Positions 2,800 through 14,656 of a stretch of DNA of 22,891 nucleotides are shown one piece after another (positions within the stretch are counted from its first letter, which is position 1; the number at the start of each line of letters is the position of its first letter). The stretch covers positions 1 to 22,891 of the IMG/VR virus record IMGVR_UViG_3300032323_003024. One strand, written 5' to 3'. A program made the position numbers and the translations under genes. Origin of the DNA: a virus. Below the pieces are notes generated by a model, which saw only the letters and a program-made list of their open reading frames with translations, did not search any database and was not told the origin of the DNA.

Positions 2800-3693
2800 A
2801 TGAAAATAGCACTCGCATCAGATCTCCATTTAGAATTCGATAACATCGTTTTAAAGAACGAACAAAACGCTGACGTATTAATTTTGAGTGGTGATATCTG
2901 TGTTGCTAAAACAATTGAGAAATTTATTCCGTTTTTTGCAAACTGCTCTAATGAATTTCCATATGTAGTTTATGTTGCTGGTAATCATGAGCACTACGGT
3001 TACGATTTTAAATATACAATTCGTGATATTAAAAACGCACTAGCAGCTCTTCCAAATATTCATCTATTAGATAAAGAAACATTTACGCTTGACGATGTTA
3101 CTTTTATTGGTGGTACATTATGGACTGATATGAATGAAGAAGATTCTTTGACTATGCTTCATGTTAAAAGAGCTATGAGTGATTATCACGTCATTGAAAA
3201 TAGTAATCGCATGGTACAAAGAAAAGTACCACTATATGAATTGAATCCTAATTATACTGAAGATGGTAAAAATGGTGGAATGTATAAACTTAACGAAAAA
3301 GGTTACAACATTTGCATCGGTGAAAAGATCAAAGAAGAACCAGCTAAGTTTGCGCCAGAGGATACTGTCGACGATCATCGTAAGATGTTAGAGTACATTG
3401 AGTTGTGTACTGCAGAAAGTGATCAAAAGTTTGTAGTGGTGGGTCATCATGCACCAAGTAAATTAAGTACACATCCACGCTATCAACATGATACGACTAT
3501 GAATGGCGCTTACAGCTCAGACTTAATTGAGTTTATCATGAACAGACCATGTATTAAGTTATGGACTCACGGACATACGCATGATGTGTTTGATTATATG
3601 ATTGGCACTACACGAGTTAGTTGTAATCCACGAGGTTACAGTGGATATGAACGACGCGCTGATAATTTTGAATTGAAATATTTGGAGGTATAA
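2800..3693 (+). CDS. Calcineurin-like metallophosphoesterase
   Basis: The 297-residue protein carries the ordered metal-binding motifs of the calcineurin-like phosphoesterase family: SDLHLEF (Asp8, His10), LSGDI (Asp32), AGNHEHYG (about 60-67), VVGHHAPS (about 213) and THGHTHD near residue 258. These ligate a two-metal centre that hydrolyses phosphoester bonds. An insert of about 60 residues (roughly 130-190) separates the core motifs. The substrate cannot be deduced; phage members may act on nucleotides, RNA ends or DNA. There is no Shine-Dalgarno and the -10 lies only six bases upstream, so the mRNA is probably leaderless. Its stop overlaps the next start (TAATG). Confidence 0.9.
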   Translation: MKIALASDLHLEFDNIVLKNEQNADVLILSGDICVAKTIEKFIPFFANCSNEFPYVVYVAGNHEHYGYDFKYTIRDIKNALAALPNIHLLDKETFTLDDVTFIGGTLWTDMNEEDSLTMLHVKRAMSDYHVIENSNRMVQRKVPLYELNPNYTEDGKNGGMYKLNEKGYNICIGEKIKEEPAKFAPEDTVDDHRKMLEYIELCTAESDQKFVVVGHHAPSKLSTHPRYQHDTTMNGAYSSDLIEFIMNRPCIKLWTHGHTHDVFDYMIGTTRVSCNPRGYSGYERRADNFELKYLEV

Positions 3694-6741: not shown

Positions 6742-7374
6742 TTAAGCAGATAAAACGTGTACTGCATGATTATAGTGATTAACACGATCAGCAAGACCAA
6801 TAGTACCACCATTGATTCGCTTAGTCATACCTTCAAAATCACCGGCATCAGCAAATGTATTTAAATCATTTGAATACCAGAACCAGCAAGCAGAGTGTAC
6901 TGCACCACGTGGAGTCTCAAGATATTCTGCAGCTTGCTCAACAGTAATCTCAGCAGATTGTGCAAAGGCTGTATAGTTACTACGGCCAGTTAACTGAATC
7001 AAACCACGACCACAGAATCTCCAACCATCACCTGAAGCTGGATCACCATTACCCATACGATTTGCATAAACTAAGTTAGCAATCTTTTCCGGTTGACGAT
7101 GATATTCAGTTGCATCACGGCCAGCACCAATGAAATACTTTTTGAAGATGTTATTCAATCCATCTGATGAGTAGTTTAAGTTCTCTTTAAGAACTGCATA
7201 ACCACCAGATTCGTGTGCCGTTTGTGCTAGAAAAGAAGCAACTCTACCAACAGTTGTAATTTCAAACACTGGCAATAATTCTACTAATTCATTATACCAT
7301 GTTCCAACACCATATGCGGCGTTAGGTATAACTTGTTGTAGTTTTTCTTGCGTAAAATTAAATTCAAAAGACAT
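6742..7374 (-). CDS. GH19-family endolysin
   Basis: The 210-residue protein matches the glycoside hydrolase 19 (chitinase-like) endolysins of phages: FLAQTAHESGGY (Glu55), LKENLNYSSDGL (Glu64), YHRQPEKIANLVYANRMGNGD (about 91-111, quoted only as pattern), GWRFCGRGLIQLTGRSNY (about 117-134), CWFWYSNDLN and RINGGTIGLADR. In phages this fold cleaves the peptidoglycan glycan strand; Glu55 and Glu64 are candidate catalytic acids. There is no signal peptide, so it would need a holin to reach the periplasm, and two holin-like genes begin this operon. AAGGAAATAAT precedes the ATG. It follows the cyclase gene by 18 nt. Confidence 0.92.
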   Translation of the reverse strand: MSFEFNFTQEKLQQVIPNAAYGVGTWYNELVELLPVFEITTVGRVASFLAQTAHESGGYAVLKENLNYSSDGLNNIFKKYFIGAGRDATEYHRQPEKIANLVYANRMGNGDPASGDGWRFCGRGLIQLTGRSNYTAFAQSAEITVEQAAEYLETPRGAVHSACWFWYSNDLNTFADAGDFEGMTKRINGGTIGLADRVNHYNHAVHVLSA

Positions 7375-7392: not shown

Positions 7393-9423
7393 TTATTTAC
7401 TTGTAGCTCTATAGACACCATCCCAATTTGCTGGTAAGCCTTCATTTATGCGCTCTAGCATATTGATATAGTATTGTTTTAAATCAGTATCATCTTCTGC
7501 TAGTTTTTCGCAGTGGCGTTTAGCTGATGTCCAATCGCCGGCATAATACTTATCTAAAAATGTTTGATGTTTCCAATTTGATTCACCGAGTGTAAATATT
7601 TTGATACCTTCAGTTTTACCTTTAACAGCAATGCAATCTAGTTCTATTACTGGATACTCATCTTTAACGTATTCGGCAGTTAGACTACCTAATACCATTT
7701 TAACTCCGTAGGGCTTGGACTGTCCTTCCAATCTACTAGCCAAGTTAACCGAATCTCCGAGGCAAGTATAGTCAAAGCGTTGGTCTGAACCCATATTTCC
7801 AACAACAACGGTGCCTGTATTAATACCAAGACCCATACCAAACGCAGGAATACCTTCTTTAGCAATTTCATTATTAAATTCTTCTAAACTATTCATCATC
7901 TGCAACGCTGTACGCACTGCCATCTTGGCATGTTGTGGTTCATCTAGTGGTGCATTCCAAAATGCCATTTGAGCATCACCAATATACTTATCTAGAGTAC
8001 CATTATTTTCAATAATCTTCGCTGTCATCGCTGTCATATAGCGATTCATAATTTTAGTTAAGCCCTGTACGTCTTTGCCATAGTGTTCTGAAATTGTAGT
8101 AAATCCTCGAACATCTGTAAACATAATCGAGAGTTCTCTTGAATCACCACCGAGCTGTAACAATTCTGGGTTTCGTTGAAGTTTTTCAACCAATGCTGGG
8201 CTGAGGTATGTTCCAAATTGTTTTTTGATTTGGAGCTTTTGGCGCAATTCAACAAGGAATTTGACAACGTATCCGTGGAAACTAACGAGCGTGAGGGTGA
8301 GTATAGGGAATACAGCATCAAGTAAATAGCTTGATCGAACAAATAATTCAATACCGGCATAGTACGTAGCTCCTGATAAAAGTAATGCAAATACATAACC
8401 ATGCGTAAATCTCGTTAGAATTAATGTGATAATACAAATTGCAATAATGTATAGTAACTCTGCACCTAACGCCCAATCAGGTCTCGATATATTTTTACCT
8501 TCAATTAACGTATCCAAGATTGCTGCTTGAAGATAATGCGGATACACTCCACCTGTTGCAGTAGCTACTGGATTATTGAGTCCCTTTGCAGTAAGACCAA
8601 CAATAACAATACCACCATTAAAATCTTTTGGTAACTTTGCTGCAGAGTGTTCAATTGGTTGACTAGACCAATCAATCCAAACTCTACCAACTTCATCTGT
8701 TTGTATTTTTCTAAACTGTGGAATGCGTACTGCTTCAATTAAACCTTCATTAACTTTTACTTGGAAACTTGGATCGCCACTTGCAACTCTTAATGTTTCA
8801 AGTGTGATGGAAGGATAGAGTTGTCCATTTGATTGTACAACCATTGGTACTCGTCTGGTGACGCCATCGATTTCTGGCAATGTGTTAACAACGCCAATCC
8901 CAGCAGCACTACTATTAAACTCTTTAATATTAGGTTGAATGCTTTCATAAACTATTCCTGCATTTTCTCCACCTATGACTGATACGCCAGGTCTAAATGG
9001 AATTCCCTTTTGAGGACCAGTTGATCCGGCTTGTGGTAATACAACTGGATACTGTTTAAGTACAGACGTTAACTTATCATCTTGACCAAAGCGATCACGC
9101 TCAGGCATATAAACATTAAAAACAACCAGCCCAGCACCACGCTGATACAGATCACTAATGAGTTGGGCATATTGTCCGCGAGGGAATGGAAATTGTCCCT
9201 TTTGTTCGAGTGTTTGTTCATCAATATTCACCACATGTATTTGTTGAGAAGTTACTTTGGGTTGACTTGTTACTAAGGTATCAAAGTATCGCAGTCGGAT
9301 AGATTCCACAAATGATGGATCCACAATGCGTATAGACAACAAAAGCACTAGGGTTACTAGTGCTAACCACGGAGATAGTAATTTCTTACTTTTGAATAAT
9401 GCTAATAGTCGTTGTGCCACCAT
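7393..9423 (-). CDS. CHASE2-domain class III adenylate cyclase
   Basis: The 676-residue protein has an N-terminal membrane helix (about 16-34), an extracytoplasmic CHASE2 sensor domain (about 40-310, including VNIDEQTLEQKGQFPFPRG), three membrane helices (about 320-390) and a C-terminal class III nucleotidyl cyclase domain (about 425-610). Catalytic residues are intact: metal-binding Asp437 (FTDVRGF) and Asp483 (YIGDA), adenine-selecting Lys479 and Thr553 (DYTCLGD), and transition-state Asn560 and Arg564 (NLASRLE). ATP-to-cAMP conversion is thus predicted. A short C-terminal extension (about 615-676) looks TPR-like. It overlaps the FecR gene by 38 nt; FecR-CHASE2 pairs are common in bacterial genomes. 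AAAGGTGAAC precedes the ATG. Such a full sensor cyclase is very unusual in a phage. Confidence 0.93.
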   Translation of the reverse strand: MVAQRLLALFKSKKLLSPWLALVTLVLLLSIRIVDPSFVESIRLRYFDTLVTSQPKVTSQQIHVVNIDEQTLEQKGQFPFPRGQYAQLISDLYQRGAGLVVFNVYMPERDRFGQDDKLTSVLKQYPVVLPQAGSTGPQKGIPFRPGVSVIGGENAGIVYESIQPNIKEFNSSAAGIGVVNTLPEIDGVTRRVPMVVQSNGQLYPSITLETLRVASGDPSFQVKVNEGLIEAVRIPQFRKIQTDEVGRVWIDWSSQPIEHSAAKLPKDFNGGIVIVGLTAKGLNNPVATATGGVYPHYLQAAILDTLIEGKNISRPDWALGAELLYIIAICIITLILTRFTHGYVFALLLSGATYYAGIELFVRSSYLLDAVFPILTLTLVSFHGYVVKFLVELRQKLQIKKQFGTYLSPALVEKLQRNPELLQLGGDSRELSIMFTDVRGFTTISEHYGKDVQGLTKIMNRYMTAMTAKIIENNGTLDKYIGDAQMAFWNAPLDEPQHAKMAVRTALQMMNSLEEFNNEIAKEGIPAFGMGLGINTGTVVVGNMGSDQRFDYTCLGDSVNLASRLEGQSKPYGVKMVLGSLTAEYVKDEYPVIELDCIAVKGKTEGIKIFTLGESNWKHQTFLDKYYAGDWTSAKRHCEKLAEDDTDLKQYYINMLERINEGLPANWDGVYRATSK

Positions 9424-10480
9424 TGTTCACCTTTTGATATAGAGGAGTTCCATCCTGTGTTATATTTATAGCCAGATCAGATTCCCTATTCACAATTATT
9501 TGGGCAGTATGTGTACCTTGTTTAGTTAATATAAGTCTATCATTTTCATCGATACCATAACGTAATCCAGAAGCTTCACTCCAGCCAGGAAGCATAGTAG
9601 TTTGTTCTAGTAAAACTTCTTGACTTGCGGCCAACGCCTTTGTACTTTCATCTAAGATGTTAGGCAATAAATCATTGTCTAATTCATTTAAACCCAATAG
9701 ATCATACTTCAATTCATCTTTATCTAGTGCATCGTACTTTAATAAATCTCTATCTAAAAAGTTTATATCAATCGCCGTTTTATTTTCTGACTTACGTTCT
9801 TCATCCGCTACTTCTTTTGGTGGAGTAATAATGAGTAAGTTATTAATGTTCGCTTGATCTATTGACACTATAACAGGTTTTGATGGCGGTTGATTACTAT
9901 CAGCAACTAATGTAGTTTGATACGCTACATCCATTAACACAGAACCAGCGTTAGTAGAAACTTGAATAGCACCTGTTACGCATGCTTTGTTATCGCATGA
10001 TGGTAACAACATAATTAGTGAACGACCTAATTCATCAACAGTCATAGAGAAGTCAGTACCTCTCACAGCGATTGTTGCTGTAGGTGTTTTAATATCTACT
10101 GCTTGTGGATTTGATTTGGCAATTTGACCACTAGCATACCGAGCAGTCCCCAGTACGACTTTCATAGCGAGTTTGCCTGAACCTTTTTTAGGATCATACA
10201 CGAAGTCATCTATCACGAGCTTTGATTGCTCTGTGATATTGACTGTCGTGTTGTCCTCAAAAGTTAACTTGGCTTTAGCCTTAGCTGTAACAATAGTATC
10301 ATTCATTTCAACTCCACTGCCTACTTTACTAGGAATAGAGTTTTTGTTTCTTACAATTTCAGTTGGACCAGTTTGCTCTGAAACTTTACCAACAGCAGCA
10401 AAATTAGTTTGACTGATTAATAGTAATATTATTAAGATTGCCAGTTGAGTTAACTGTAATGCTTTGTTGTAGTGTACCAC
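9386..10480 (-). CDS. FecR-domain periplasmic protein with curlin-like tail
   Basis: The start is GTG at 10480, supported by GGAG nine bases upstream, and the product opens with a signal peptide (hydrophobic residues 13-23, likely cleavage after NFA at residue 28). Residues about 40-150 form a FecR domain: VGSGVEMNDTIVTAKAKAKL, FEDNTTVNITEQSKLVIDD, VVLGTARYASG and the family hallmark VRGTDF (139-144). A Leu/Asp-rich repetitive linker follows (about 240-280, DLLKYDALDKDELKYDLL). The C-terminus (about 326-364) has curlin-like strands (INITQDG, TTTISIIQK) echoing the neighbouring curlin gene. It overlaps the curlin gene by 77 nt and the cyclase by 38 nt. It probably acts outside the inner membrane as ligand or scaffold for the CHASE2 cyclase; a role as amyloid nucleator is possible. 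Confidence 0.88.
   Translation of the reverse strand: MVHYNKALQLTQLAILIILLLISQTNFAAVGKVSEQTGPTEIVRNKNSIPSKVGSGVEMNDTIVTAKAKAKLTFEDNTTVNITEQSKLVIDDFVYDPKKGSGKLAMKVVLGTARYASGQIAKSNPQAVDIKTPTATIAVRGTDFSMTVDELGRSLIMLLPSCDNKACVTGAIQVSTNAGSVLMDVAYQTTLVADSNQPPSKPVIVSIDQANINNLLIITPPKEVADEERKSENKTAIDINFLDRDLLKYDALDKDELKYDLLGLNELDNDLLPNILDESTKALAASQEVLLEQTTMLPGWSEASGLRYGIDENDRLILTKQGTHTAQIIVNRESDLAINITQDGTPLYQKVNNGGTTTISIIQK
9463..9470 (-). promoter_or_regulatory. Possible internal late promoter for cyclase
   Basis: On the minus strand these bases read TATAAATA, the exact T4 late-promoter core. It lies within the end of the FecR gene, about 40 nt before the cyclase start at 9423. It could give the cyclase and endolysin extra late transcription. 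One 8-mer match in AT-rich DNA is weak evidence. Confidence 0.3.
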
Positions 10481-10997
10481 TCTGTGTCACTCCAATTGTA
10501 TTAGTATCGCCAGTAGCATTAATGATAGCACTTGTTACTCCACTGTTAGTTGAAGTATGAGTGATTGTATTTGAGCTACCGATTACATTAATTTCACTGT
10601 GATGATTTGCACCAGTACCTAAGTTTTGAGTGATAGTGTTATCGTCACCTGACACAACTTGTTTAATAGTAGAACCAGAACATCCAGCAGATGATGTAGT
10701 TCCACAGTTAACAGTTTGAATGTTACCACTACCAGTAGTATCAATAACTACGTTTGTAGAAGCGCCATTAACTACTAAATTAAGTTCATTGTTGCTGCCG
10801 ATCTGATCGATCGTTACAACGTTAGAACCACTTCCAATATATGCCGGGTCTAATGAATTACCAATTCTATTACCACTACCGTCTTGAGTAATAGTAATAG
10901 TTGATGAATCACCAACTTGCTCGATATATACGTCATTTGCATAAACTGAAGACGAAATCACACATAACAAGGCGATGAGTATGTTTTTACTTTGCAT
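10404..10997 (-). CDS. csgA-like: Curlin-repeat (CsgA/CsgB-like) amyloid subunit
   Basis: The 197-residue protein has a signal peptide (MQSKNILIALLCVISSSVYA) and then tandem beta-helix-like repeats with N-x-I-x-Q-x-G spacing: DVYIEQVGDSSTITITQDG, NVVTIDQIGSNNELNLVV, STIKQVVSGDDNTITQNLG, SEINVIGSSNTITHTS and NLNNITINQSN. This resembles the S-x5-Q-x-G-x-N-x-A-x3-Q repeat of curlins, which are secreted unfolded through CsgG and assemble into amyloid fibres on the cell surface. Two cysteines (98, 106) flank a short insert between repeats, which is unusual for curlins. The gene overlaps CsgG by 11 nt, as expected for a dedicated substrate. Whether it is the major subunit or a nucleator cannot be told. 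Confidence 0.87.
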   Translation of the reverse strand: MQSKNILIALLCVISSSVYANDVYIEQVGDSSTITITQDGSGNRIGNSLDPAYIGSGSNVVTIDQIGSNNELNLVVNGASTNVVIDTTGSGNIQTVNCGTTSSAGCSGSTIKQVVSGDDNTITQNLGTGANHHSEINVIGSSNTITHTSTNSGVTSAIINATGDTNTIGVTQSGTLQQSITVNSTGNLNNITINQSN

Positions 10998-11793
10998 TTC
11001 CTATGTTTTCCTTGTTTGGTTTTGGTTTGAATTTCCAAATACCTTTCTTTTCTCCGTCCATAATCATTTCATACACTGCTTGTTCAATTGCTACTCTAAC
11101 AGCGTACGTTGTAGGTTCGTTAAGTGCAGTACCACTTTCTAATTCGAGTGATTTAGTTCCCTGATCAACAAACCTTAGTACTCCAACATTATGAGCTGTA
11201 CTGTAAATCGTCTTACTCACAGCATTGCTCAACAAAATCTCTCCACTATTCACGCTTATTAAGCGAAGAGATATAACAACTTCATCTACACGATATTGCT
11301 CACTTCCACCAATTCCTAAAAATCTAGCGCCATTACCACCAGATCTAATATTAGTATCATAACCTATAATACCACCTTCAAGCATGACACCTGCTACTAT
11401 CAATGGCTTTAATGGTTTAGCTTCTTTTCCTTCGTAAACTTCACGTTGATTACGAATCAATTGTCTTTCTTTTATAAGATTGTCTAAACCTACACGTTCA
11501 ACAACCCTAAACCAATTCTTACTATCTTGTAAAGATTTAATTAGAAATGTTTCACCACCTTGAGTAACTGCAGATGAGAATAATGCTAATCTATCACTAG
11601 ATTTCTTTTGTCCAGTTTGATCTTTAAAACTATAAACCGCAATTGCAATTGGTGGTCCATCTAATTCAGGTAATTTTTCTATCATACTCTGGCGCGGAGT
11701 TAACTTAACTGGTTCTTCCTGTGCTAATTTCATATGAATATTAGCACATCCAGTTAATACTACTACAGAGAGTAATAAAAACAAATTACGCAT
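10987..11793 (-). CDS. csgG: CsgG-family outer-membrane secretion lipoprotein
   Basis: The 268-residue protein is a clear homologue of CsgG, the nonameric outer-membrane pore of the curli (type VIII) system, and is close to its usual length (277 in E. coli). It has a lipoprotein signal with lipobox LTGC (Cys16) and the CsgG core motifs AVYSFKDQTGQ (52-62), LIKERQLIRNQRE, MLEGGIIGYDTNIRSGG, GARFLGIG, QYRVDEVVISLRL and SGEILLSNAVSKTI. In the constriction loop, Phe72 matches E. coli mature Phe56, but the Tyr51 and Asn55 positions differ (Ser/Asp and Leu), and the loop is one residue longer, so pore selectivity may differ. Its ATG overlaps the stop of the barrel gene (TAATG). Confidence 0.95.
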   Translation of the reverse strand: MRNLFLLLSVVVLTGCANIHMKLAQEEPVKLTPRQSMIEKLPELDGPPIAIAVYSFKDQTGQKKSSDRLALFSSAVTQGGETFLIKSLQDSKNWFRVVERVGLDNLIKERQLIRNQREVYEGKEAKPLKPLIVAGVMLEGGIIGYDTNIRSGGNGARFLGIGGSEQYRVDEVVISLRLISVNSGEILLSNAVSKTIYSTAHNVGVLRFVDQGTKSLELESGTALNEPTTYAVRVAIEQAVYEMIMDGEKKGIWKFKPKPNKENIGNAK

Positions 11794-13646
11794 TAGAATT
11801 TAATTTTTAAGTTCGCGCTTACAATATTACTTGTTGTATTGTTAATCCAATTTTTACCTAGGCCAACAGTAAACATGAGATTATCTTCGATTTTAGACAC
11901 ATTTAAAACGGCTTCTTTTACACCACTTGTAGTTCTTGCAAACTCAGTGGTAATTTTAGCATCATAAACTTTAGCACTGTATGATACACCAACTTCACCA
12001 ACTGTGCCGGTTGTATTTTTAGCAATCATTGATTGCGCTGACTCAACACTTCCGCTTTCAGTTACTGCAGGTGTATTAACTTTATAAACAGAACCACCAA
12101 CGAATGGGCGGAATCCTTCAACTGATGGTGTGTATGCTCTTGTGCTTAACCAAGTCATATTGCTTTTATTTGAATAATCATTTGCAAATGGACCAATGGT
12201 TCTATTGTAACGTGATGTAGTATTAACTCTAGCTAAATCGTTTTGAATTGTGAATCCGTTTAACTCAACATCAGCGTATACACCAACGTGTGTTCCAGTT
12301 AATGAAGCGTTATTTGTATCACGACCATCTAATCTACTAGAAATTTTATTGACTTGAAAACCAACGATCAAATCTGGATTAACGTCAGTTTCATATGCAA
12401 AACCTGCAATTGAAGTAGTTGCTCCATAACTGTTTTGGCCAGCGTACTTAATTCCAGTAACATTAATCGCCATTCTTCCATGCTCAGATGCAACACCGTA
12501 CTTAGCACTATTGCGATTTAAGTTACGATAAATTCCAGATCTAATAATATCAAATTGCTCAGCTTGGTCTGCCCGGCCAGAAAAACTATCGTTAGCAGTA
12601 GATGTAGCAATAACGTTAAATGATTCAGTCGTTTGAGTTGTAGAACCCTCTGTAGTAACTATTGAATCATCACTGTACGTGGTTGTTGTTACTGGTGTAG
12701 TTGAGATAGTTCTAATCCAAGGGGTATTAACACTCGTTGTTATAGTTCTATCAATTGTTTGCAATCCACTTACTTTACTATTTGCATAGTTAAATGATGC
12801 TGTAGAAGTAGGACTTTGATTTGCATCAACTATTTCTGCAACAATAATATGATTGTATGATGTAGTACTTACAACTGTTGGTGCACTTGGAGTACTTGGT
12901 GGAGGTGCTGAAGGCGCAGTATCATTGTTTGGAGCAACTGCACCAAAAGTTTGGCCATTCTTCGTTGTACTTCCTTGCACTTCATCAATGTATAGGATTG
13001 GACTTAATGCTGTATCACCTAAATTGAATACACCGAAACCTAATAAGTAATCACCGCTTTCAGTAACATTGAATGTTGCAACTTGCCAACCAGTAGCGCC
13101 ATAAGAACCAGTGGAGTAATCACCTGTACCAGGATTAGTAAAACCTAATAAAGCGTATTGGCTATTATAGTTATTAACGACTGTTGTGCCAGTGCTATTC
13201 ACTTTTGTTAATGTAGCAATTGAACCATCATTAAATGGAACGTAGTCAACGCTAACATATTGCCACGCTAAACTGAATTGTGTTCCAGCAGTTAATGTAA
13301 CTGTGCGTGTTACGTAACCAGCAGTTGTTGGAGTTGGATTACCACCACCACCGCTTTGTGCTTGTTGTTGTAGTAATGTAGTGATGCCTGATACGCTAGT
13401 GCTGTTCAATCCTAAAGCACTAGTCATATTATTAAACGATCCATTAGTGATTTGTAGTGTACCCATGTAACTACCATATGGATTAATAACCCATGCATTA
13501 GGACCAGCTTGTAGTGTTTGTGTTCCAGTTGCAGTTAATGTTGAGCTCGTCCAACCGGTGATATTACCGTCTTCAAATCCTAAGTTCTGAGCGTGTGCTG
13601 AAAATGCTAATGTAGCTAATGCAGCAAAAATTGTTTTCTTAAACAT
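11793..13646 (-). CDS. Large secreted outer-membrane beta-barrel protein
   Basis: The 617-residue protein opens with a signal peptide (MFKKTIFAALATLAFSAHA). A beta-sandwich-like domain follows (about 20-235, starting NLGFEDGNITGW, as in carbohydrate-binding or PEP-CTERM-type proteins), then a proline-rich hinge (about 240-262), a Thr/Ser-rich stalk (about 265-360) and a C-terminal barrel (about 375-617). The barrel shows alternating strands (GFAYETDVNPDLIVGFQVNK) and ends in aromatic Phe (NLKIKF), the usual barrel-assembly signal. This is autotransporter-like. Its place between csgF and csgG, with AGGAA before the ATG and a one-base overlap into csgG, makes it part of the module: perhaps an anchor, adhesin or outer-membrane partner of the fibre. 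I do not recognise a named family. Confidence 0.8.
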   Translation of the reverse strand: MFKKTIFAALATLAFSAHAQNLGFEDGNITGWTSSTLTATGTQTLQAGPNAWVINPYGSYMGTLQITNGSFNNMTSALGLNSTSVSGITTLLQQQAQSGGGGNPTPTTAGYVTRTVTLTAGTQFSLAWQYVSVDYVPFNDGSIATLTKVNSTGTTVVNNYNSQYALLGFTNPGTGDYSTGSYGATGWQVATFNVTESGDYLLGFGVFNLGDTALSPILYIDEVQGSTTKNGQTFGAVAPNNDTAPSAPPPSTPSAPTVVSTTSYNHIIVAEIVDANQSPTSTASFNYANSKVSGLQTIDRTITTSVNTPWIRTISTTPVTTTTYSDDSIVTTEGSTTQTTESFNVIATSTANDSFSGRADQAEQFDIIRSGIYRNLNRNSAKYGVASEHGRMAINVTGIKYAGQNSYGATTSIAGFAYETDVNPDLIVGFQVNKISSRLDGRDTNNASLTGTHVGVYADVELNGFTIQNDLARVNTTSRYNRTIGPFANDYSNKSNMTWLSTRAYTPSVEGFRPFVGGSVYKVNTPAVTESGSVESAQSMIAKNTTGTVGEVGVSYSAKVYDAKITTEFARTTSGVKEAVLNVSKIEDNLMFTVGLGKNWINNTTSNIVSANLKIKF

Positions 13647-13654
13647 TTAATTTC

Positions 13655-14092
13655 CTAAAATGCGAATGAGGCGATAGGTACTGTGATGTCTGTCCTATTA
13701 CCATTAGTTTCTGTAATCGTTAGTGTTACGTCTGTACCAGTTTTAACCCATGAAATAGCTGTGCCTTGAAAACTCATATCACCTGAGGTGGCACCACTGT
13801 CTGCAAACATTGCATCTGCAAGTTGCTTTGAAAGTTGAGCATAAATTCTTGACTCAACGTTAACTAAAAATTTAGCAAGGTTAGTATTTCTTGCCGCACG
13901 ATCGGCTGCATCTTGAGCAGCTCTTTCATTATCTCTGAGTTTTTGTGTACGTGTAGCTTCTAGTTGTTCAATGGTTAGAACGTGAGTAGAGTAACCCACA
14001 CCACTAAAAGCTGGGGAATTAAATTGATGAACTAGTTCTGAGGCATTAGCACAATTAACTAGTAGTAGACTTAGTAGAACCCTTTTTAGCAT
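13655..14092 (-). CDS. csgF: CsgF-like curli assembly factor
   Basis: I chose ATG 14092 because the product (145 residues) then begins with a compact signal peptide (MLKRVLLSLLLVNCANA). The mature start, SELVHQFNSPAFSGVG, matches the CsgF N-terminal pattern QF-(R/N)-x-P-x-F-x-G, the segment that plugs into the CsgG channel in E. coli. HVLTIEQLEATR then parallels the LLNSAQAQN segment. An Ala/Arg-rich helix follows (about 57-75), then ESRIYAQLSKQLADAMF and a C-terminal beta pair (DVTLTITETNGNRTDITV) like the CsgF tail. CsgF forms a second constriction on CsgG and anchors the nucleator. The gene overlaps the holin-like gene upstream by 38 nt, and the weak GAAGA upstream suggests coupled translation. 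Confidence 0.85.
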   Translation of the reverse strand: MLKRVLLSLLLVNCANASELVHQFNSPAFSGVGYSTHVLTIEQLEATRTQKLRDNERAAQDAADRAARNTNLAKFLVNVESRIYAQLSKQLADAMFADSGATSGDMSFQGTAISWVKTGTDVTLTITETNGNRTDITVPIASFAF

Positions 14093-14333
14093 CAGCTTTA
14101 TCTTCTTGGTCGCGTAATGATAGAATAACATTAACCTTTTGGTTTAGACGAATTAAGTCATTATCTAACATACGAATACGATCAATCAAATCAACTAACA
14201 CTTTACTTGCTTCACTTGTAACAGGTTTAATTTCTGTTGTTACCCATTGCCAAACGTAATACACAAAGTAGCCAAGACCACCAGCGGCTACAATTGGAAA
14301 ACCATACTTATTAATTAATGATACGATATCCAT
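14055..14333 (-). CDS. Holin-like membrane protein, copy 2
   Basis: This 92-residue protein has one hydrophobic helix near the N-terminus (YGFPIVAAGGLGYFVYYVW, about 10-28), a long cytoplasmic helix (DLIDRIRMLDNDLIRLNQKV) and a charged tail. It is clearly paralogous to its upstream neighbour (both have GFPI, GYFV and a later D-R-I/V...DVIRID-like helix). Such GFPI-type single-helix proteins occur near lysis genes in marine T4-like phages and are probably holins or holin regulators. It shares base 14333 with the upstream gene's stop (TAATG) and overlaps csgF by 38 nt. Confidence 0.75.
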   Translation of the reverse strand: MDIVSLINKYGFPIVAAGGLGYFVYYVWQWVTTEIKPVTSEASKVLVDLIDRIRMLDNDLIRLNQKVNVILSLRDQEDKADAKKGSTKSTTS

Positions 14334-14608
14334 TAATCTCTCCTAGCGTCGGACTGCTCAGCGCGAGCAATACGATCTAAGTCTGGTGGAATACCTAAGG
14401 CGTGAGATACTTTAGTATCGATTCTTATAACATCATGATTCATGGCTGCTACACGTTTATCGAGAGCAACAATAATACCCATCATGCTTTTTACAGAAGA
14501 GGTTACACCGGCTAAGATAAACTTTAGTGTAAGGAAGACGAAATATCCGGCTGCGATTGCTGCTGCAATTGGAAAGCCTACTTCAGCTACTAATTTAAAG
14601 AATTCCAT
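14333..14608 (-). CDS. Holin-like membrane protein, copy 1 (operon leader gene)
   Basis: This 91-residue protein has a hydrophobic helix (VGFPIAAAIAAGYFVFLTLKFIL, about 10-32) and an amphipathic helix with DKRVAAMNHDVIRIDTKVSHALG (about 49-71), closely parallel to the following gene. Paired holin-like paralogues may act as holin and antiholin, but which is which cannot be told. It is the first gene of the ten-gene minus-strand operon, about 35 nt after the TATAAATA promoter. The endolysin, its natural partner, is eight genes downstream. Confidence 0.75.
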   Translation of the reverse strand: MEFFKLVAEVGFPIAAAIAAGYFVFLTLKFILAGVTSSVKSMMGIIVALDKRVAAMNHDVIRIDTKVSHALGIPPDLDRIARAEQSDARRD

Positions 14609-14642: not shown

Positions 14643-14656
14643 TTATTTATAAATAA
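14643..14656. promoter_or_regulatory. Palindromic divergent late promoter
   Basis: TTATTTATAAATAA is a perfect 14-nt palindrome containing the T4 late core TATAAATA on both strands (plus 14648-14655; minus 14644-14651). It lies midway between the divergent starts at 14608 (minus) and 14687 (plus). It is flanked by near-concentric TTGTGAT (14630-14636) and ATCACAA (14662-14668), which could form a long hairpin or two TGTGA-type half-sites. No better promoter is visible for the ten-gene operon. Confidence 0.6.

Follow-up and report, generated by a model that had tools for sequence, protein, structure and literature searches.

The closest described systems are the T8SS (curli) modules of pelagiphages. 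A 2022 paper (PMC9599517) reports an adenylate cyclase and FecR within these modules, in passages that also describe module transfer from Myoviridae to Podoviridae and call the genes preceding the module histidine kinase. In HTVC008M (KC465899), a Pelagibacter phage, and Melnitz (MZ577097), a Methylophilales phage, the module runs CsgF, CsgG, curlin, FecR, optionally a second curlin, and cyclase. Phage curli genes are discussed in PMC7029224 and PMC9004378 in passages that do not use the word cyclase, and a literature search on phage CHASE2 cyclases, judged by its listings, turned up no publication that mentions CHASE2 in a phage.

Bacteria offer several partial parallels. According to the relevant passages of each source, the CHASE2 cyclases CyaD1, CyaD2 and CyaK of S. 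meliloti respond by way of NsrA, an outer-membrane barrel (PMC13001267), a Campylobacterota cAMP cluster places FecR next to a CHASE2 adenylate cyclase (PMC9239204), and the Burkholderia BiofilmReg locus places FecR next to a CHASE2 histidine kinase (PMC5192318). The FecR-CHASE2 passages of PMC9239204 and PMC5192318 describe no link to curli or to phages.

The stretch of DNA analysed here (the window) is a virus contig of 22,891 bases, T4-like in that it encodes gp32 and gp59 homologues. It carries CsgF, CsgG, curlin, FecR and adenylate cyclase together, as in the pelagiphage set and in the same order. In contrast to HTVC008M and Melnitz, an autotransporter barrel here separates CsgF from CsgG, the cyclase is followed by an endolysin, and the leading ORFs lack a kinase domain, unlike the histidine kinases named in the pelagiphage modules. 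With the Campylobacterota and Burkholderia loci it shares a periplasmic FecR-domain protein adjoining a CHASE2 sensor, although the output of the Burkholderia system is a histidine kinase instead of a cyclase. The combination of a phage CHASE2 cyclase with curli genes is already on record in related viruses, and the wiring of the parts described here is partly new. Apparently new are a curlin-like tail on FecR, a T4-type late promoter, the barrel of a 617-aa ORF, and the failure to detect a cAMP-binding domain in 14 phage records.

Results

The minus strand at positions 7393 to 9423 encodes a 676-aa protein composed of a CHASE2 domain and a class III adenylate cyclase domain; the plus strand of this interval contains stop codons throughout. 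The CHASE2 domain occupies residues 24-334 (Pfam, E-value = 8e-40; 137.5 bits against a cut-off of 26.3) and the Guanylate_cyc domain residues 430-605 (E-value = 8.9e-21; 74.7 bits against 21.9), and PHROG 35576 matches the full-length protein (E-value = 1.9e-287). The best solved-structure matches of the catalytic half are the adenylate cyclases 6fht, 1wc1, 2w01 and 3r5g, with E-values down to 1.5e-34.

Class III adenylate cyclases convert ATP to cAMP as dimers, and their hallmarks are two metal-binding aspartates, a substrate lysine plus a threonine, aspartate or serine, and a transition-state asparagine and arginine. D437, K479, D483, T553, N560 and R564 are all present in the window cyclase. 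We take D437 and D483 to be the metal-binding residues, K479 and T553 the substrate residues, and N560 and R564 the transition-state residues. CHASE2 sensors typically exhibit one membrane helix before the CHASE2 domain and three after it. The hydropathy profile reveals one span at about 13-40 and one long span at 316-362, in which a third C-terminal helix is not resolved. A first-pass annotation of this DNA had described a complete, membrane-bound CHASE2 sensor cyclase with these six residues; the Pfam matches and the residue check bear out the complete enzyme, and the CHASE2 score above its cut-off agrees with the sensor domain, the hydrophobic spans with membrane attachment.

The same annotation held that such a protein is not normal phage cargo and proposed a search of virus databases for CHASE2-cyclase fusions. 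A scan of IMG/VR found at least 591 relatives of the window cyclase, of which the best 80, with 59-90% identity, were retained. By tblastn, relatives were also found in four Melnitz and two HTVC008M records, at only 38-39% identity over most of the length, and these carry a cyclase annotation in both phages. Together with the passages of PMC9599517 cited above, these matches contradict the idea of unusual cargo. Two matches labelled Acinetobacter "phage MD-2021a" (H7 and H8) were dropped; the neighbours of H8 are cellular (mfd, isc cluster) and it looks bacterial. The resulting set of 83 phage cyclases consists of the window, L002-L081, L082 and L083, includes near-identical copies and some cut at contig ends, and leaves out L001, which is the window itself, and L084, which is the Acinetobacter match.

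In these 83 copies D437, K479, D483 and R564 are invariant. Position 553 is threonine in 79 copies, aspartate in three and serine in one, and position 560 is asparagine in 80/83, with serine in L068, L072 and Melnitz. This conservation and the family E-values rule out chance. The most conserved parts are the linker (396-428) and the catalytic domain, with a mean column identity of 0.91 for the linker and 0.87 for the catalytic core, against 0.74 for CHASE2. Comparison of the window cyclase with L056 gives dN/dS values of 0.072/0.228, and four close pairs give 0.006/0.106, 0.026/0.277 (L050/L052), 0.009/0.109 and 0.027/0.394; the near-identical pair L025/L064 exhibits a few non-synonymous and no synonymous changes, and two further pairs are identical. 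Selection on the phage cyclase is purifying. Given this selection and the lysine and threonine at the substrate positions, the CHASE2 membrane cyclase probably makes cAMP.

The nearest bacterial sequences, missed by a single-protein scan of genome contigs and found by a scan with alignment A1, are mostly from Alphaproteobacteria and 31-38% identical over most of the length. The alphaproteobacterial cyclases (Bradyrhizobium and others) exhibit the same domain order from end to end and the same catalytic residues as the phage proteins, with serine or threonine at position 553; among 80 bacterial relatives D437, K479, D483, N560 and R564 are kept in all, and position 553 is serine in 75 and threonine in five. 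In an unrooted tree of 22 of the 83 phage and 27 of the 80 bacterial sequences, all phage sequences fall on one side of a branch with support 100/100, and the phage clade sits on a long branch. This fits one old acquisition of the phage cyclases. The first-pass annotation had read long residence from base composition shared with the window. The composition is indeed shared (gene GC 0.385; 1-kb windows of the contig range from 0.318 to 0.439), but it does not date the residence, for which the single long-branch phage clade is the better argument.

A FecR neighbour is common in the alphaproteobacterial loci. Among the bacterial loci with room, a FecR-domain ORF lies directly upstream of the cyclase on the same strand in 21/69, and one occurs somewhere in 35 of all 80. 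Unlike the phage loci, those of Alphaproteobacteria have no CsgG nearby (0/80 bacterial loci within 10 kb), and their FecR domains often belong to proteins of more than 1,000 aa; by eye, no curlin-like tail is seen on the bacterial FecR neighbours. Across the bacterial loci (L085-L164) the FecR neighbours are often the N-terminal parts of 1,000-3,000-aa proteins, which suggests that in bacteria large secreted adhesins are what FecR-CHASE2 pairs monitor. No bacterial curli locus with both FecR and cyclase was seen in three regions inspected.

In the window, the minus strand reads small ORF, small ORF, CsgF, 617-aa ORF, CsgG, curlin, FecR, cyclase, endolysin and a further small ORF, and the module ORFs abut or overlap. 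CsgF (13655 to 14131; Pfam CsgF, 4.9e-16) and CsgG, the outer-membrane curli pore (10987 to 11793; Pfam CsgG, 5.6e-53), flank the 617-aa ORF. A CsgA/B-like curlin fibre subunit follows (10404 to 10997; Pfam Curlin_rpt, 8.2e-07; NCBIfam CsgA, 1.6e-06, below cut-off). Directly downstream of the cyclase is a GH19-like endolysin (6742 to 7374; phrog_181, E-value = 1.2e-76). The Pfam scan took in 20 of the 38 listed ORFs of the window, in which there was no tRNA and no Rfam match at the gathering threshold. Besides the endolysin, the plus strand encodes a second cell-wall hydrolase (PF07486, 17593-18162) and a calcineurin-like phosphoesterase (phrog_1649, 2800-3693). For the latter, cAMP phosphodiesterase activity is not supported, its NCBIfam match reaching 22.1 bits where the cut-off is 225; the eukaryotic-type phosphodiesterase profile PF00233 matched no control.

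The module is linked across phages. CsgG, CsgF, curlin, FecR and both small ORFs accompany the cyclase in 44 of the 46 loci with at least 7 kb available upstream; a 617-aa-type ORF is present in ten of these 46 and an endolysin in seven. Conversely, FecR and the cyclase are found in all 14 CsgG loci having 8 kb downstream, in two of which (L180, L192) the cyclase lies on the strand opposite to the CsgG module. In the two exceptions among the 46 (L054:9995-12007 and L043:8912-10924) the cyclase is separated from FecR and the curli genes, its neighbours are other genes of phage or host-like type, and it may move on its own. Stand-alone ORFs of about 120 aa at L182:8491-8865 and L184:7883-8239 weakly match the cyclase profile (E-value = 2.5e-10 and 2.6e-05); by eye they resemble the cyclase tail after the catalytic domain, which hints at a shared module.

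The first module gene (14333 to 14608, minus strand) and the next (14055 to 14333, minus strand) both match phrog_18771. By position we infer that they correspond to the histidine kinase genes of PMC9599517. That name looks wrong, since the ORFs are 91-92 aa long and neither Pfam nor NCBIfam detects a kinase family in them; they resemble small membrane proteins, perhaps of the holin type, and match a holin family weakly (phrog_4898, E-value = 0.0012).

The 617-aa ORF (11793 to 13646, minus strand) models as an autotransporter with an N-terminal passenger region. Its AlphaFold model (mean pLDDT 62.6, about 80-90 in the barrel) exhibits a 12-strand C-terminal barrel after a pore helix and a poorly modelled passenger half. 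The top Foldseek match is the NalP translocator (TMt 0.80), and a homologue in L075 matches Pfam Autotransporter (2.9e-12). In several phages the N-terminal part of this protein type is fused to curlin-like repeats as judged by eye, Pfam detecting none in L048. The second curlin protein of HTVC008M, annotated as "hypothetical protein" (L083:10598-11923), combines PA14 with curlin repeats and is possibly a fibre-borne lectin. Additional domains are therefore displayed on fibres or barrels by these phage curli modules, a pattern that speaks more for an adhesive surface than for a pore alone.

The FecR-domain protein (9386 to 10480, minus strand; Pfam FecR) is predicted to be periplasmic. Its model (mean pLDDT 73.5) begins with a helix at residues 2-25 and goes straight into strands; a cytoplasmic N-terminal anti-sigma domain is absent from it, so that a sigma-factor route is unlikely for the phage protein. 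The body matches the anti-sigma signalling domains of PupR and BDI_1681 (6ovk, Z = 15.5; 4m0n, Z = 14.2), and residues 27-122 match a cell-surface anchoring domain (5ix9, Z = 10.6). The C-terminal part consists of a low-confidence stretch and six strands, and the structural alignment barely covers residues after 208. In alignment A2, built from 33 of the 54 distinct FecR ORFs, the final 31 columns of the tail match the end of curlin with an hhalign score of 23.9 (E-value = 6e-05, probability 64%), against at most 14.0 for 100 column-shuffled tails. Q363 (of 364 in the window protein) is invariant in 33/33 and Q342 is found in at least 90%, whereas Pfam Curlin_rpt matches 0/33 members. FecR thus ends in a probable curlin-like repeat, a feature unmentioned in the FecR passages of PMC9599517.

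The methods of PMC9004378 give the T4-type late motif as 5'-TATAAAT-3'. The form TATAAATA occurs on the minus strand before the module (14644 to 14651), 36 nt before the first ORF, and a motif search located a second minus-strand copy at 9463 to 9470, about 40 nt before the cyclase begins. Among the phage loci, TATAAATA is present in 24 of 50 distinct 100-nt stretches upstream of the first small ORF, for which a background of 136 per 2,554,488 strand-bases predicts about 0.3. The corresponding counts are 0/48 for the second small ORF, 1/48 for CsgF, 0/11 for the 617-aa type, 0/49 for CsgG, 0/48 for curlin, 0/50 for FecR, 2/63 for the cyclase and 0/9 for the endolysin, all stretches being anchored on mechanically chosen first start codons. 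Loosely matched late-motif sites in the window are not enriched (44 against 66 expected). The motif predicts expression of the module late in infection.

Discussion

With moderate confidence, we propose that an active CHASE2 cyclase pairs with FecR in a late phage curli module and makes cAMP acting on a host protein. The pairing is backed by the module linkage (44/46 and 14/14 loci) and by the FecR-CHASE2 neighbours of bacteria (21/69), and the curli/FecR module, with which the first-pass annotation had not connected the cyclase, likely gives this enzyme its input. Curlin would exit through CsgG/CsgF, with the autotransporter barrel exposed at the outer membrane. FecR, anchored in the periplasm, would read fibre export or the state of the outer membrane, its curlin-like repeat linking fibre to sensor; it would then change the CHASE2 conformation, and the conserved linker would relay this to the cyclase dimer. 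cAMP production would coincide with the assembly of adhesive curli by the infected cell, and cAMP would act on a host protein such as a CRP-type regulator, adjusting the cell during virion production. We infer enzyme activity, the FecR-CHASE2 contact, the signal and the host target. A host target is proposed since the phages yielded no cAMP receptor: 14 phage records were scanned, each with a single CHASE2 cyclase, and a cNMP-binding domain was detected in 0/14, some of them fragments, while the control matched in 11/14 genomes. The NsrA-dependent cyclases of S. meliloti provide a working analogue for the proposed phage pathway. Several observations count against the proposal, namely the failure of Curlin_rpt to match FecR, the serine replacing asparagine in Melnitz, L068 and L072, the separated cyclases of L043 and L054, and the opposite orientation in L180 and L192. 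A more specific version, which we advance tentatively, is an amyloid-status pathway: the FecR repeat would engage unexported or growing curli and control the cyclase, and a lytic phage would report the state of its fibres to the cytoplasm of its dying host as cAMP.

The first two ORFs, with their holin match, and the endolysin on the same strand after the window cyclase fit a different reading, in which the module is mainly a lysis-timing device: the small membrane proteins would work together with the CsgG/F pore and the endolysin, and the cyclase or its cAMP would set when lysis occurs; a passage of PMC9004378 proposes a role in lysis for the curli pore of Melnitz. We consider it unlikely, as the endolysin is a neighbour in so few loci (7/46), the curlin subunits, the PA14-curlin fusion of HTVC008M and the autotransporter point to surface display, and FecR and a cyclase would be needless for a pore alone.

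The phage cyclase could instead be an unregulated source of cAMP shifting host carbon metabolism, with CHASE2 and FecR as inherited bystanders. The stronger conservation of catalytic core and linker than of CHASE2 would suit this, as would the cyclases kept away from FecR in L043 and L054, but it appears doubtful because the copies keep CHASE2 and almost all of the loci have FecR linked (44/46). Phage defence makes use of cyclic nucleotide signals, but that cAMP or another nucleotide serves as a decoy or regulator against nucleotide-based host defence is highly improbable, as the nucleotide defences known to us use other molecules, the module bears no sign of defence, and a membrane sensor architecture would be needless.

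Conclusion

For curli in phages of streamlined aquatic bacteria, the published passages offer two ideas, sibling capture and lysis control. The late promoter, the curlin-like tail of FecR and the strictly conserved cyclase make the purpose of phage curli experimentally addressable. If FecR binds curlin and gates the cyclase, and cAMP is made late in infection, this would be a rare transmembrane signalling pathway carried by a phage.
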